This document shows positions 55,911 through 59,436 of a DNA stretch of 64,000 nt, piece after piece. How positions within the stretch are numbered: position 1 is the stretch's first letter; every line of letters begins with the position of its first letter. The stretch is from Sphingomonas aracearum (lineage in GTDB: Bacteria; Pseudomonadota; Alphaproteobacteria; Sphingomonadales; Sphingomonadaceae), in assembly GCF_003345355.1 (NCBI RefSeq), contig NZ_QQNB01000001.1, positions 992,001 through 1,056,000 on the forward strand, written 5' to 3'. The position numbers were made by a program, and so were the translations under genes. Under the pieces are notes generated by a model. The model saw only the letters and a list, made by a program, of their open reading frames with translations. It was not told the origin of the DNA and ran no database searches.

Positions 55911-57116
55911 ATGAACCAACCGTCCCGCATCGACTGGAGCGCCGCCGCCGAGGCGGGGCTGCCCGACATCGTCGGGCTGCGCCGCGCCATTCACCGCGAT
56001 CCGGAGATCGGCCTCCACTGTCCGCGCACCGCCGACAAGATCCGTGCGGCGCTGGCCGGCCTGCCGCTCGAGATCCGCGAGGGCCGCTCCACCACCGGGC
56101 TGGTGGCGATCCTCCGGGGCGGCCGCGACAATGGCCGAACGGTGCTGTTGCGCGGCGACCATGACGCCTTGCCGATGCAGGAGGAGACCGGCCTTTCCTT
56201 CGCCAGCGAGGTGGCGAACGCGATGCACGCCTGCGGCCATGATGCGCACACCGCGATGCTGGTCGGTGCCGCACGCGCCCTTTCCGCCCAGCGCGAGGAG
56301 CTGCCCGGCACGATCGTCTTCCTCTTCCAGCCCGGCGAGGAAGGCTATCACGGCGCCCGCTACATGATGGAGGACGGCCTGCTCGACATCGCGCGGCCGG
56401 AGGCGGCGTTCGCGCTGCACCTGTGGCCCAACCTGCCCGCCGGCACCTTCTGGAGCCGTCCCGGCCCGCTGATGGCCTCGGCCGACACGATCCGCTGCAC
56501 GGTGCGGGGGCGCGGCGGACATGGCGCGATGCCGCACGACTGCCTCGATCCGGTGCCGGTCGCCTGCGAGATCGTCACGGCGCTGCAGACCTATATCGCC
56601 CGCCAGGTGCCGGTCACCGATCCCGCCGTGCTGACGATCGCGAAGATCGCGGCCGGCAGCGCGCACAACGTCATCCCGGGCGAGGTGGAGATGCTGGGTA
56701 CGCTGCGCGCCCTGTCCGAGCGGACGCGGGGCCAGATGCACGAGGCGTTCGCCCGCATCGCCACGCACATCGCCCTTGCCCATGGCGCGACGGCGGAGCC
56801 GGGCGTCGAGCCGGGCTATCCGGTAACCGTCAACGATGCGCGCGCCGTGACGCTGGCGCGCGAGGAGGCGGAGGCGCTGGGCGCGCCGTGGCAGGAGATG
56901 GCGCAGCCGATGATGGGCGCGGAGGACTTCTCCTACGTGCTGCGCGAGATCCCCGGCGCGATGACCTTTCTCGGCGCCGCGCCCGAAGGCAGCGACCCGG
57001 GCGCCAACCCGCCGCTGCACAACACGCGGATGGTGGTGGACGAGGCGGTGATGGCGCGCGGCGTGGCGCTGCACTGCGCGCTGGCCGAGCGCTTCCTGCA
57101 TCGCGGCTTCGACTGA
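55911..57116 (+). CDS. M20-family amidohydrolase (hippurate/IAA-amino acid hydrolase-like)
   Basis: A 401-residue cytosolic M20D-type amidohydrolase. Metal and catalytic motifs are intact: LRGDHDALPMQEETGL, HACGHDAHTAMLVGAA, FLFQPGEEGYHGA and the late GAEDFSYV. No signal peptide, unlike the M20 protein at 2692. The substrate (N-acyl amino acid, hippurate or indoleacetyl conjugate) cannot be chosen from sequence. The original cobB start lies 12 bp after its stop, so they probably formed an operon before the insertion. Confidence 0.88.
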   Translation: MNQPSRIDWSAAAEAGLPDIVGLRRAIHRDPEIGLHCPRTADKIRAALAGLPLEIREGRSTTGLVAILRGGRDNGRTVLLRGDHDALPMQEETGLSFASEVANAMHACGHDAHTAMLVGAARALSAQREELPGTIVFLFQPGEEGYHGARYMMEDGLLDIARPEAAFALHLWPNLPAGTFWSRPGPLMASADTIRCTVRGRGGHGAMPHDCLDPVPVACEIVTALQTYIARQVPVTDPAVLTIAKIAAGSAHNVIPGEVEMLGTLRALSERTRGQMHEAFARIATHIALAHGATAEPGVEPGYPVTVNDARAVTLAREEAEALGAPWQEMAQPMMGAEDFSYVLREIPGAMTFLGAAPEGSDPGANPPLHNTRMVVDEAVMARGVALHCALAERFLHRGFD

Positions 57117-57128
57117 GGCGCGCGGCCG

Positions 57129-57245
57129 ATGACGGCACCGCGCTCGATCGTGATCCTCACCGGCGCCGGCATCTCGGCCGAGTCCGGCATCGCCACCTTT
57201 CGCGGACCCGGTGGGCTTTGGGAAGGGCACCGGGTCGAGGATTGA
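57129..57245 (+). pseudogene. cobB: Displaced 5' stub of cobB (38 codons)
   Basis: ATG 57129 opens a frame that is clearly the start of a sirtuin ([19 protein letters not shown], then [10 protein letters not shown]) and stops at TGA 57243-57245 right after HRVED. The sequence then switches to the inserted element. Joining 57241 to 58842 would give an uninterrupted cobB of 235 codons. The stub keeps its original place downstream of the M20 gene and may still be translated, but it lacks most of the enzyme. Confidence 0.85.
57231..57241 (+). repeat. Left junction direct repeat (attL-type core)
   Basis: The 11-bp CGGGTCGAGGA at the end of the cobB stub; identical to 58831-58841. It is the presumed recombination core region; the exact crossover dinucleotide cannot be fixed. 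Confidence 0.75.
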
Positions 57246-57290
57246 TGCTTTTTTCTAACGATAATACGTCGGCTTCCGAAGGGAAGCTCG

Positions 57291-58415
57291 ATGCGTATTG
57301 TGCCGTATCTCCGTTGGTCGCGAGAGAAGCAGGGTTCCGGGTCCACTATTCCCCGGCAGACCGCAACCATCCGCGCCTATGCGGACGAGAAGGGTTGGTC
57401 GCTTCCGCCTGAAGCCGAGTGGTTGCGCGATGAAGGCGTGTCCGGGTTCAAGGGGCACAACATGGCTCCGGCTGGTGCTCTCGGGCAGTTTACCGATCGG
57501 GTGTGCCGTGAAGGCGCCCATGACACGGTTTTGCTGTGCGAGCAGCTTGATCGCTTGAGCCGGAAGAAGCCCGGTGAAGTGCTGGAGTGGTTTTTCCGGG
57601 TCACCAACGCGGGGCTCACGATCGCCCTCGCCGACAACAAGATGCTCGTGGACCAAGCGTCCATCCGCAACCAAGCCGACCAGCTACGGGCGCTTCTTGA
57701 CGACACGGAGCGGGCGAACACGGAGAGCGCTCGCAAGTCGGTGCTGCTACGCGGGGCGTGGGCAGCGATCCGCGACGGCATGGAGGTGCGCAGCGAACGC
57801 CCCGGCACAATCATCGCCGTCGATCACCTCCAGTCGTTGAGCAACCCCGTCGATCGCGGGGTAGATATCACTGTCAAGACAAAGCGCGGGAGCGACACCT
57901 ACGAGCTTACCATGCTCGCCGATGATTTCACGCCCACCGTAGGTAAGTTCCTTGAACATGACTCATTGCTCGGCTCCGTGAAGCGCAAGGTGCATGTGTC
58001 GGCTACCTGTCCCGGATGGCTGGCGCTCTCGCAGTGTCGCCGGTTTTTCGAGCCCGTCCCGGAGAAGGTGGCTGTGCTGGAGCGAATCTTCACGCTCTAC
58101 GCCGAAGGGAAAGCCAAGACCGCCATCGCCCGCATCTTGAACGGCGAAGCCACCCCCACGTTCCGTGGTGGTGATGGTTGGCAGGGATCGGCGGTATTCG
58201 CGGAGCTTGAGCGCAGCATTCTGCGGCAGAGGATCATGGCAGGGTTGGCGCGATCCACGAAACGGTCAGGCCGACCGCCCCTCGACGCCGAGAAGGTCGA
58301 GCGCATCAAGCGCTCCCTCACCAAGGGCGTCAGCATCAACGCCACGGCCAAGAAGCTCAAGGTCGGTGTCGCGACCGTCCATCGGGTAAAACAGCAGATG
58401 GCGCTCGCCGCCTGA
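57291..58415 (+). CDS. Serine recombinase with mosaic architecture
   Basis: A 374-residue serine recombinase. The resolvase-type catalytic domain has PYLRWSREKQGSG with nucleophile Ser10 and EQLDRLSRKKPGE. A large-serine-recombinase 'recombinase' domain follows (residues 225-300: PEKVAVLERIFTLYAEGKAKTAIARILNG, PTFRGGDGWQGSAV). There the sequence changes to an invertase/resolvase-like end: FAELERSILRQRIMAGLARS and a helix-turn-helix (GVSINATAKKLKVGVATVHRV). The zinc ribbon and coiled coil of large serine recombinases are missing. GAAGGGAAG precedes the ATG. It is probably the integrase of the element, or a decayed form of it. Confidence 0.85.
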   Translation: MRIVPYLRWSREKQGSGSTIPRQTATIRAYADEKGWSLPPEAEWLRDEGVSGFKGHNMAPAGALGQFTDRVCREGAHDTVLLCEQLDRLSRKKPGEVLEWFFRVTNAGLTIALADNKMLVDQASIRNQADQLRALLDDTERANTESARKSVLLRGAWAAIRDGMEVRSERPGTIIAVDHLQSLSNPVDRGVDITVKTKRGSDTYELTMLADDFTPTVGKFLEHDSLLGSVKRKVHVSATCPGWLALSQCRRFFEPVPEKVAVLERIFTLYAEGKAKTAIARILNGEATPTFRGGDGWQGSAVFAELERSILRQRIMAGLARSTKRSGRPPLDAEKVERIKRSLTKGVSINATAKKLKVGVATVHRVKQQMALAA

Positions 58416-58619
58416 TCAACGAGCGCGCAGCCACTCCATCGCCTCGTCAAAGGTCATCGTCATTCTCGGCTGCGCGCCTGCCTGCTCGATGCGAGCGAGA
58501 AAGTCCGGGTCGAGTTCTTCACCCCGGCAGATCGGGCATGGCTCATGTGCATAGTTATCCCCGCAGCTTCTATCGTGCTCGCCCATGATCTCGAAGCCTT
58601 TATCGGAGATGCACTTCAT
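58416..58619 (-). CDS. Small Cys-containing protein in the cobB element
   Basis: A 67-residue protein convergent with the recombinase. It contains DRSCGDNYAHEPCPICRGEE (CxnC and CPIC, a possible zinc site) and an acidic C-terminal helix (MTMTFDEAMEWLRAR). The frame is open to 58772, but that longer version is antisense to the new cobB start, and ATG 58619 is more likely. No family recognised. Its position next to the right junction would suit an accessory or directionality factor, but that is only inference. Confidence 0.5.
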   Translation of the reverse strand: MKCISDKGFEIMGEHDRSCGDNYAHEPCPICRGEELDPDFLARIEQAGAQPRMTMTFDEAMEWLRAR

Positions 58620-58695
58620 GCGCGTTACTCGATTAGCGTTCCTCCCCCACGTCAGCCCATTCGCTCGTATCCGCGCCAATGGGTAAGCAGGAGAA

Positions 58696-59436
58696 ATGAC
58701 TGACATGCATAACATCGTGGTCCTGACTGGCGCGGGCGTCTCTGCCGAGTCTGGCATTCCGACTTTTCGCACACACGGCGCGGTCTCCTACTGGGAATAC
58801 GGCGACGAAGACGGCGTTAGAAAAAGACATCGGGTCGAGGACGTATGCACGCCGGAGGCGCTGGCGAGGGATCCGGCGCTGGTGCACCGTTTCTACGACC
58901 TGCGCCGGGCCGCGCTGGCGGGCGTGGCGCCCAATCCGGCGCACGAGGCGCTGGCGCGGCTCGATCGCGCGTGGCCGGGCGAGTTGCTCGTCGTCACGCA
59001 GAACGTGGACGACCTGCACGAGCGCGCGGGCGCCCGGCGGCTGCTGCACATGCACGGCGAGCTGCGCTCCGCCCTGTGCGCGCAGTGCGGGGATCGCCGG
59101 CCGTGGCGCGGCGATCTGCCGCCCGGCTCGATCTGCGAGGAATGCGGTACGCCCGCATTGCGGCCGGACATCGTGTTCTTCGGCGAGATGCCCTATGCCA
59201 TGGACCGGATCGAGCGCGCCCTTGCCCGCGCCGACCTGTTCGTCTCCATCGGCACTTCCGGCGCGGTCTATCCCGCCGCCGGTTTCGTGCAGGTGGCGGG
59301 GCGAGCGGGCGCCCGTACGCTGGAGCTGAACCTGGAGCCCTCCGCGGGCAGCGCGTGGTTCGAGGAGGCGCGGCACGGACCGGCGGCCACGCTGGTGCCG
59401 ACGTGGGTCGACCAGCTGCTTAACCTGAAGCAATAA
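58696..59436 (+). CDS. cobB: NAD-dependent protein deacylase, reconstituted across the element junction
   Basis: A 246-residue class III sirtuin. The first 49 codons (to about 58841) are carried by the element: VVLTGAGVSAESGIPTFR, then an unusual longer loop (THGAVSYWEYGDEDGVRKR) before HRVED. The rest is native: VTQNVDDLHERAG, the catalytic histidine in HMHGEL, zinc cysteines CAQCGD and CEECG, and GTSGAVYPAAGF. FYDLRR carries the YxxR signature of desuccinylase-type sirtuins. The native stub has about 11 fewer residues before HRVED. AGGAG lies just before the ATG; ATG 58705 is an alternative. Confidence 0.88.
   Translation: MTDMHNIVVLTGAGVSAESGIPTFRTHGAVSYWEYGDEDGVRKRHRVEDVCTPEALARDPALVHRFYDLRRAALAGVAPNPAHEALARLDRAWPGELLVVTQNVDDLHERAGARRLLHMHGELRSALCAQCGDRRPWRGDLPPGSICEECGTPALRPDIVFFGEMPYAMDRIERALARADLFVSIGTSGAVYPAAGFVQVAGRAGARTLELNLEPSAGSAWFEEARHGPAATLVPTWVDQLLNLKQ
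58831..58841 (+). repeat. Right junction direct repeat (attR-type core)
   Basis: Second copy of CGGGTCGAGGA, inside the restored cobB frame, followed directly by native cobB sequence (VCTPEALARDP). Confidence 0.75.

Follow-up and report, generated by a model that had tools for sequence, protein, structure and literature searches.

How can a conserved gene that has been cut near its 5′ end by inserted DNA come to be read again? The question is raised by cobB, the gene of a sirtuin, in a stretch of 64,000 nucleotides of Sphingomonas aracearum (assembly GCF_003345355.1, contig NZ_QQNB01000001.1, positions 992,001 to 1,056,000 of the forward strand; hereafter the window, in whose own numbering coordinates are given). 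Sirtuins are highly conserved regulators that depend on nicotinamide adenine dinucleotide (NAD), and in the window the gene is interrupted by exactly 1600 bp at the codons for HRVED. Our analysis revealed that the replacement of the sirtuin 5′ end is real, recurrent and linked to phages, and the insert in the window is very probably what is left of a temperate phage. The large serine recombinase (LSR) of this phage would have recombined the phage attachment site attP with a bacterial site attB within the HRVED codons and severed the native cobB 5′ end, and the phage's own sirtuin 5′ end would have fused in frame to the remaining cobB. One half-site of attP would be both bound by the recombinase and translated, so that the protein gains a loop of GVRKR or DLVPK type before HRVED (GVR and VPK types below). 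Selection for a readable cobB would then keep the supplied 5′ end and allow the remainder of the element to decay. We infer the chemistry of the crossover, that a complete phage once existed in this lineage and that the recombinase has lost its activity, as well as how many times insertion occurred independently, that transcription comes from the element and that the enzyme is active.

The interrupted cobB gene and its attachment sites

The native 5′ stub of cobB (57129-57245, plus strand) starts 12 bases past the stop of the preceding gene (open reading frame (ORF) 55911-57116), encodes 38 amino acids with an N-terminus of the type found in native loci, and ends in HRVED directly before a stop codon; its 38 codons alone match Pfam SIR2 at 1.1e-5. 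The 5′ end supplied by the element (58696-58842, plus strand; 49 codons, MTDMHNIVVLTGAGVSAESGIPTFRTHGAVSYWEYGDEDGVRKRHRVED) is preceded by AGGAG, a ribosome-binding-like sequence at 58687-58691 on the same strand, and runs in frame via HRVED into the native remainder (58843-59436, plus strand), which is delimited by its ORF, by Pfam and by comparison with native loci. Together they encode a sirtuin of 246 amino acids (58696-59436; Pfam SIR2 4.3e-39), and the replacement part includes the NAD-binding GAG-S/TFR motif. With a SIR2 domain bearing the GAG-S and TFR parts of the NAD motif, the product is a putative class III sirtuin of the CobB/SIRT5-like kind. GC content is 0.611 within the insert and 0.69-0.73 outside. 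The original prediction for this locus had described a cobB split by a 1600-bp insert with a repeat at both junctions, a site-specific insertion at the HRVED codons, and an in-frame rebuild from a 5′ end that brings its own start codon and ribosome-binding site; sequence and ORFs bear out each of these, and the arrangement recurs in other genomes.

An 11-base core, CGGGTCGAGGA, lies at 57231-57241 and again at 58831-58841, at a spacing of exactly 1600 bp. On the left, attL (57231-57260) consists of the bacterial half CGGGTC, the central dinucleotide GA (57237-57238) and the element half GGATTGATGCTTTTTTCTAACG; on the right, attR (58815-58841) begins with the element half CGTTAGAAAAAGACATCGGGTC, which is translated as VRKRHRV, followed by the central GA (58837-58838) and the bacterial half. 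The direct repeat had been predicted. To it we add an inverted repeat of 17 nucleotides, 57244-57260 against 58815-58831, which is 88% complementary and centred on the core GA, and the centre of symmetry is refined to the two GA positions just named. Around this GA, 15 of 22 positions of the arms pair, a value matched by 10 of 200,000 shuffles of the right arm, and the inverted arms of the window exceed chance expectation. In the related element of Sphingomonas sp. Leaf242 the arms GTTAGAAAAAAACATC and GATGTCTTTTTCTAAC pair at 17 of 22 positions. Pooled over ten elements, 104 of 220 positions pair at register 0 versus 43-75 of 190-220 at shifts of 1-8, and the pooled register-0 value was equalled by none of 20,000 shuffles. 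These are the ten elements with a readable core, including genome G228 with its apparently broken cobB; G029 and G190 (core decayed), G148 (stub cut short) and stub-less genomes are omitted. Inverted attP arms flanking a central GA would be the pattern expected for an LSR.

Prophage relatives and the spread of replaced 5′ ends

The phage link is most direct in Leaf242, where the cobB stub is followed by an LSR of 617 amino acids and, 39 kb on, by a replaced cobB of phage type. This LSR is 72% identical to residues 1-307 of the recombinase encoded in the window and combines Resolvase (PF00239), Recombinase (PF07508) and zinc-ribbon (PF13408) domains in one protein, the domain set of an LSR integrase. 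Nine of ten proteins of the element matched PHROGs families and one had no match; the matches include terminase, portal, major head, tape measure, tail, helicase/primase and endolysin, and the Leaf242 element is, as judged from these genes, a temperate phage.

Among viral contigs of IMG/VR, one carries phage-like genes and then a GVRKKHRVED cobB 5′ end joined to host cobB. Ten ORFs beside that cobB gave two clear PHROGs matches (an HNH endonuclease and a family of unknown function), one weak match and seven without any. This contig is the one viral match of the GVR-type att pattern and, being fused to host cobB, it represents an integrated element and no free form; the VPK-type pattern had no match in the viral contigs. 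A profile of the 5′ end hit 66 viral loci; the sole good match (71%, 2e-21) was the top one, on this same contig, and the loci read from this search were that contig, L154 and L208. A further LSR relative in IMG/VR (L054) begins at the LSR, and its record yielded no cobB 5′ end. The INPHARED phages yielded 17 records; none reached 60% identity or covered 80% of the query. When an LSR with 43% identity to that of Leaf242 (P0134) served as query, 17 of 295 genomes of the genus matched at E <= 1e-50; among the ten of these 17 whose cobB place is known, the LSR sits at cobB in G183, the Leaf242 genome, alone, and therefore no integrase is known for the VPK type.

To survey the genus, a profile was built from seven long 5′ ends and the best E-value per genome was taken in 295 genomes, that of S. 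aracearum included. The profile matched in 282 genomes. The long type is present in 21 of the 295 (20 of the 294 others), at 6.7e-22 or better and 79 bits or more; all remaining genomes lie at 4.6e-20 or worse, and all 21 long N-termini were read. A recognisable stub is kept in ten of the 21, with a distance from stub start to new start of 1567 bp in the window, about 39.3 kb in Leaf242 and 425-701 bp in the eight others. Related elements at the same motif, on which the original prediction depended, are therefore present at cobB in other genomes. In the family, the long type was found in seven of 396 other genomes (E <= 1e-21; the 396 include some of the same genus) from five other genera, with a stub 930 bp upstream in G624 and 654 bp upstream in G356 and none found for the other five. 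A protein search gave 69 long forms among the best 120, our own included, as judged from the list; this search was biased to the long form by its long query and by scoring only the 8000 candidates that share most words with it. Mobile DNA has probably rewritten this conserved sirtuin repeatedly in the genus.

The histories of the two parts of the gene are discordant. Leaf242 and G208 are 0.94 identical in the body of cobB and 0.73 in the 5′ end, and G032 and G029 are 0.93 and 0.65; G287 and G006 show the reverse, with 0.87 in the 5′ end and 0.73 in the body. Among native forms the difference between 5′ end and body ranges from -0.107 to +0.096 over 210 pairs. The comparison covers 22 long and 21 native forms (22 of 24 native loci, one of them dropped where the split point was not found) and consists of pairwise identities rather than a tree. 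The discordance would fit exchange at the HRVED codons rather than descent. Ratios of nonsynonymous to synonymous substitution rates (dN/dS), pooled over pairs that are not independent and over short 5′ ends, are low. Among seven close relatives the cobB body gave 0.09, the cargo gene 0.18 and the supplied 5′ end 0.16; the 5′ ends of four VPK-type and four GVR-type genomes gave 0.09 and 0.15, respectively. With values of 0.09-0.16, the supplied 5′ ends appear to be under purifying selection and are probably functional.

The original prediction had also offered an addiction strategy. This looks unlikely, since four genomes of the genus (G122, G170, G251 and G299) that are 99-100% complete gave no cobB match and the cobB of G228 looks broken. 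Some further loci may be recorded here. In G228 (L121, L122) stub and body lie at the ends of two contigs that share inverted termini like those of an insertion sequence (IS), which suggests an IS inside the phage-type 5′ end. In G125 (L123) a decayed stub is followed after about 0.9 kb by an intact cobB whose N-terminus is of native type, and the sequence upstream of this cobB resembles some of the inserts; perhaps it belongs to an element with a native-like loop. The proteins P0195, P0236 and P0292 are native stubs of another type (IDTFR..GGLWE.HRVD) with the common tail TLCRV..KKVE, perhaps a third type of att arm in other sphingomonads. Record L036 contains sphingomonad-like DNA under the title Bacillus sp. 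2B10 N11, and a sphingomonad-like cobB lies on another contig of its genome; the record is probably mislabelled or mixed.

The supplied loop, the small inserts and the window recombinase

The attR arm of the window is read as GGC GTT AGA AAA AGA CAT, that is GVRKRH, and its codons are rare in five neighbouring host genes (AGA 2 of 134 Arg, AAA 3 of 51 Lys, GTT 3 of 139 Val). Within the GVR group the arm shows fewer synonymous differences (9 of 36 same-residue pairs) than the codons upstream (71 of 155). AlphaFold models of a long and a native form, built from the same 56 homologues, differ in this region: the long form has predicted strands at 30-36 and 42-46, with block values of the predicted local distance difference test (pLDDT) of 84-89 for residues 31-50 and 70 for 21-30, and the native form is modelled as coil, with pLDDT 55 (21-30) and 75 (31-40). 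For the extra loop the models thus predict a beta-hairpin next to the NAD-binding motif; the nearest solved structure is that of Escherichia coli CobB.

We lean slightly towards the supplied N-terminus being functionally neutral, in the sense that it keeps cobB working and leaves specificity unaltered; the original prediction had suggested that deacylase specificity could change. GAG-S and PTFR are kept in all 15 long forms aligned, and the FYDxRR segment, which we take to be a class III sirtuin motif, falls in the native part of the gene. Against neutrality, a loop longer by 7-11 residues recurs, with the pair YW in 20 of the 21 long forms of the genus, which argues against random tolerance; the exception, G258, has VFR and no YW. 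Moreover, in the seven relatives the 5′ end has a dN/dS about 1.8 times as high as the body.

Eight of the ten stub-bearing cases in the genus are inserts rather than prophages, have no LSR and contain mainly one small ORF each, which by eye differs between inserts. When eight of these ORFs and the end gene of the Leaf242 prophage were compared with Pfam, one PhyH and one GNAT match (the latter in the end gene) lay above the cut-off, three others were weak and below it, and four had none. A near-palindrome, CGATAATCGATTATCG, occurs with at most two mismatches 12-15 bases past the attL junction in five of the eight (G005, G006, G029, G190 and G287; loci L006 1097-1112, L008 1120-1135, L069, L063 and L005). 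The motif matches once more, close to an unrelated LSR in G253 (L134). The mostly single small gene per insert and the repeats GCTAACGCCCA and CCACCACTT, which flank some inserts, had suggested integron cassettes; this candidate was dropped on inspection by eye, as attC ends in the form known to us were missing.

The small inserts would be either decayed remnants or cassettes moved in trans. For the first, that inserts of 425-930 bp are what deletion has left of prophages, retained because cobB needs their 5′ end, the chances appear about even. The LSR of the window copy is truncated, selection would protect the cobB-proximal end alone, and the Leaf242 LSR found no match in 19 other regions from the genus nor in ten other sequences, where remains of a VPK-type LSR could escape a search of Leaf type. 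The near-palindrome shared by five of eight inserts, none of which shows remains of an LSR of Leaf type, is less readily reconciled with remnants. The same holds for the stub-to-start distances of the 12 stub cases, of which ten fall at 425-930 bp, one at 1.6 kb and one at 39 kb without intermediates, and for the dN/dS of 0.18 in the cargo gene. The second possibility we put forward tentatively and with some doubt: cobB of sphingomonads might be a docking site for a family of integrase-less single-gene cassettes below 1 kb, on which phage serine recombinases act in trans. The attP half-site of each cassette would be translated into a beta-hairpin and so exchange the NAD-site loop, and successive cassettes might stack at the same codons and turn earlier 5′ ends into stubs. 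Six of the best 120 of 4842 short hits among public proteins (P0185-P0190; the contig of P0187 is 392 kb long) have a phage-type 5′ end that breaks off at HRV(E) or directly after it. Native-type ends stop or diverge at this point in 22 others, in some perhaps through frame errors, 23 continue as native, and the remainder lack the motif searched for. The six could reflect stacking, with one element inserted into a cobB whose 5′ end had been replaced before, or else an attP junction on a circular form.

That the element of the window is itself an intact, self-mobile recombinase element of 1.6 kb, as the original prediction implied by treating it as self-contained, is improbable. An open frame of 374 amino acids with a recombinase catalytic domain does adjoin attL (57291-58415, plus strand). 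However, after the Resolvase domain the Pfam match to the Recombinase domain (PF07508) covers only positions 1-64 of 102, the zinc ribbon (PF13408) of the 617-residue relative is absent, and the LSR part, ending at about 58181-58194, is followed by a resolvase helix and an HTH_7 tail. The tail belongs to a resolvase-type segment (58194-58590), 88-92% identical in pieces to sphingomonad segments, which comprises the end of the recombinase and a small gene: its DNA at 58194-58415 is 88% identical to the gene of a 218-residue resolvase in the same genome, and three other records match stretches between about 58231 and 58590 at 89-92% identity. An ORF of 67 amino acids with no assigned function (58416-58619, minus strand) lies within this segment. 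No second copy of the recombinase was found in the same genome. By its domain make-up the protein is a chimera of LSR and resolvase, presumably inactive, and the window copy is therefore probably a relic. Elsewhere in this genome, away from cobB, there is a second LSR (G000:C6:761531-763180; L003/L129) with an open frame of 587 amino acids and 32% identity to a Sphingomonas melonis LSR used as query.

The remaining alternative would make the stub a paralogue or an unrelated duplicate, or derive the long N-terminus from ordinary homologous exchange, for which sirtuin N-termini are conserved enough, rather than from a site-specific event. It is very improbable in view of the HRVED breakpoint common to many genomes, the exact repeat of the core and the symmetry of the arms around a single dinucleotide, and the Leaf242 prophage, which lies exactly at the junction, already contradicts it. 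As regards a paralogue, the stub also resembles the native N-termini of 24 loci read.

Several observations weigh against a phage relic with a translated attP arm. The att symmetry is strong in just three of the ten elements (Leaf242 17, window 15, G228 14 of 22), moderate in three (G287 11, G006 10, G319 9) and near chance in four (G624 8, G289 8, G005 7, G356 5). The VPK quartet shows no arm effect on synonymous differences (18 of 42 versus 64 of 178 upstream), nor does a wider VPK set (59 of 142 versus 279 of 700). The window element holds no phage structural gene, just the chimeric recombinase and the 67-residue ORF, so its phage origin rests on its relatives. No sigma-70-like promoter was found in 57000-58760. 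No relative was found with an empty site between the window's own flanks: among the fetched loci the two neighbour genes of cobB matched their own-genome copies only, and the catalase neighbour, matched in 74 of the 295 genomes (E <= 1e-90), is not adjacent to cobB in the 34 other genomes that could be compared. The state before insertion is thus deduced from other species. At the level of the order, an evenly drawn sample contained the long type in none of 335 other genomes. Finally, a long N-terminus without any stub, which the original prediction had counted as contrary evidence, does occur, in 11 of the 21 long forms of the genus, where about 18 kb upstream were searched in most and only about 2 kb in G312. 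Seven of these match the Leaf242 flank to about 96 bases before cobB and then carry an insert of about 700 bases where Leaf242 has its prophage, which makes loss of the stub likely; G289 has a different insert at the same locus with the stub present. Four remain unexplained.

Relation to known elements and meaning

The domain set of the Leaf242 LSR, symmetric att sites and an integrase beside att are shared with phages phiC31, Bxb1 and A118, whose integrases combine Resolvase, Recombinase and zinc ribbon in one protein, act on att sites symmetric around a central dinucleotide and are encoded next to att. To our knowledge, the targets of known LSR phages are disrupted and not rebuilt at the 5′ end from the phage side. 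The small inserts resemble cis-mobilizable elements (CIMEs), which are att-flanked and lack a recombinase; CIMEs are many-gene remnants of conjugative elements, whereas the inserts at cobB are below 1 kb with mainly one ORF. In their outcome the cobB elements are closer to the prophages and islands at dusA, which likewise insert in the 5′ end of a conserved gene and supply a new one; the cobB element brings a start codon, a translation signal and an in-frame 5′ end. The dusA-specific elements use a tyrosine-type integrase, unlike the cobB element with its serine recombinase by Pfam, the two integrases being told apart by description. Islands at dusA were proposed to replace its 5′ end with a new promoter and N-terminus (PMC4482086), and such a replacement was measured (PMC8409611); the new N-terminus of IMEVchUSA3 is of identical length, and for dusA islands the residues affected were not known cofactor contacts (PMC4482086, PMC8409611). 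The cobB case differs in its LSR, its longer loop and the involvement of the NAD motif itself. The SXT element in prfC is cited as another gene 5′-end case in PMC8409611; SXT is, unlike the cobB elements, conjugative, with another target and another recombinase. Given the dusA and prfC precedents, 5′-end replacement of a protein gene is a kind of event already known, and the novelty that the original prediction implied for it does not hold. What is new here is the sirtuin target, the LSR, the rewritten loop at the NAD motif and the tiny inserts.

Within the open-licence PMC literature, no paper was found that joins serine integrase, sirtuin and attB, nothing on integration into cobB appeared by title and start of abstract among the matches listed, and the matches for deacetylase, attB, integrase and prophage were unrelated by title. 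The main text of PMC12884075 does not mention sirtuin, deacetylase, cobB or Sphingomonas.

If mobile DNA does repeatedly swap the end of the gene that encodes the cofactor loop, the natural chimeras would permit a direct test of the role of this loop, and the same chimeras would let one ask whether phages tune protein deacylation in their hosts. The locus also offers a candidate for a doubly constrained recombination site, which a recombinase would recognise as DNA and which also encodes residues close to the active site of an enzyme, and the inserts at cobB may represent a class of very small mobile inserts without an integrase.

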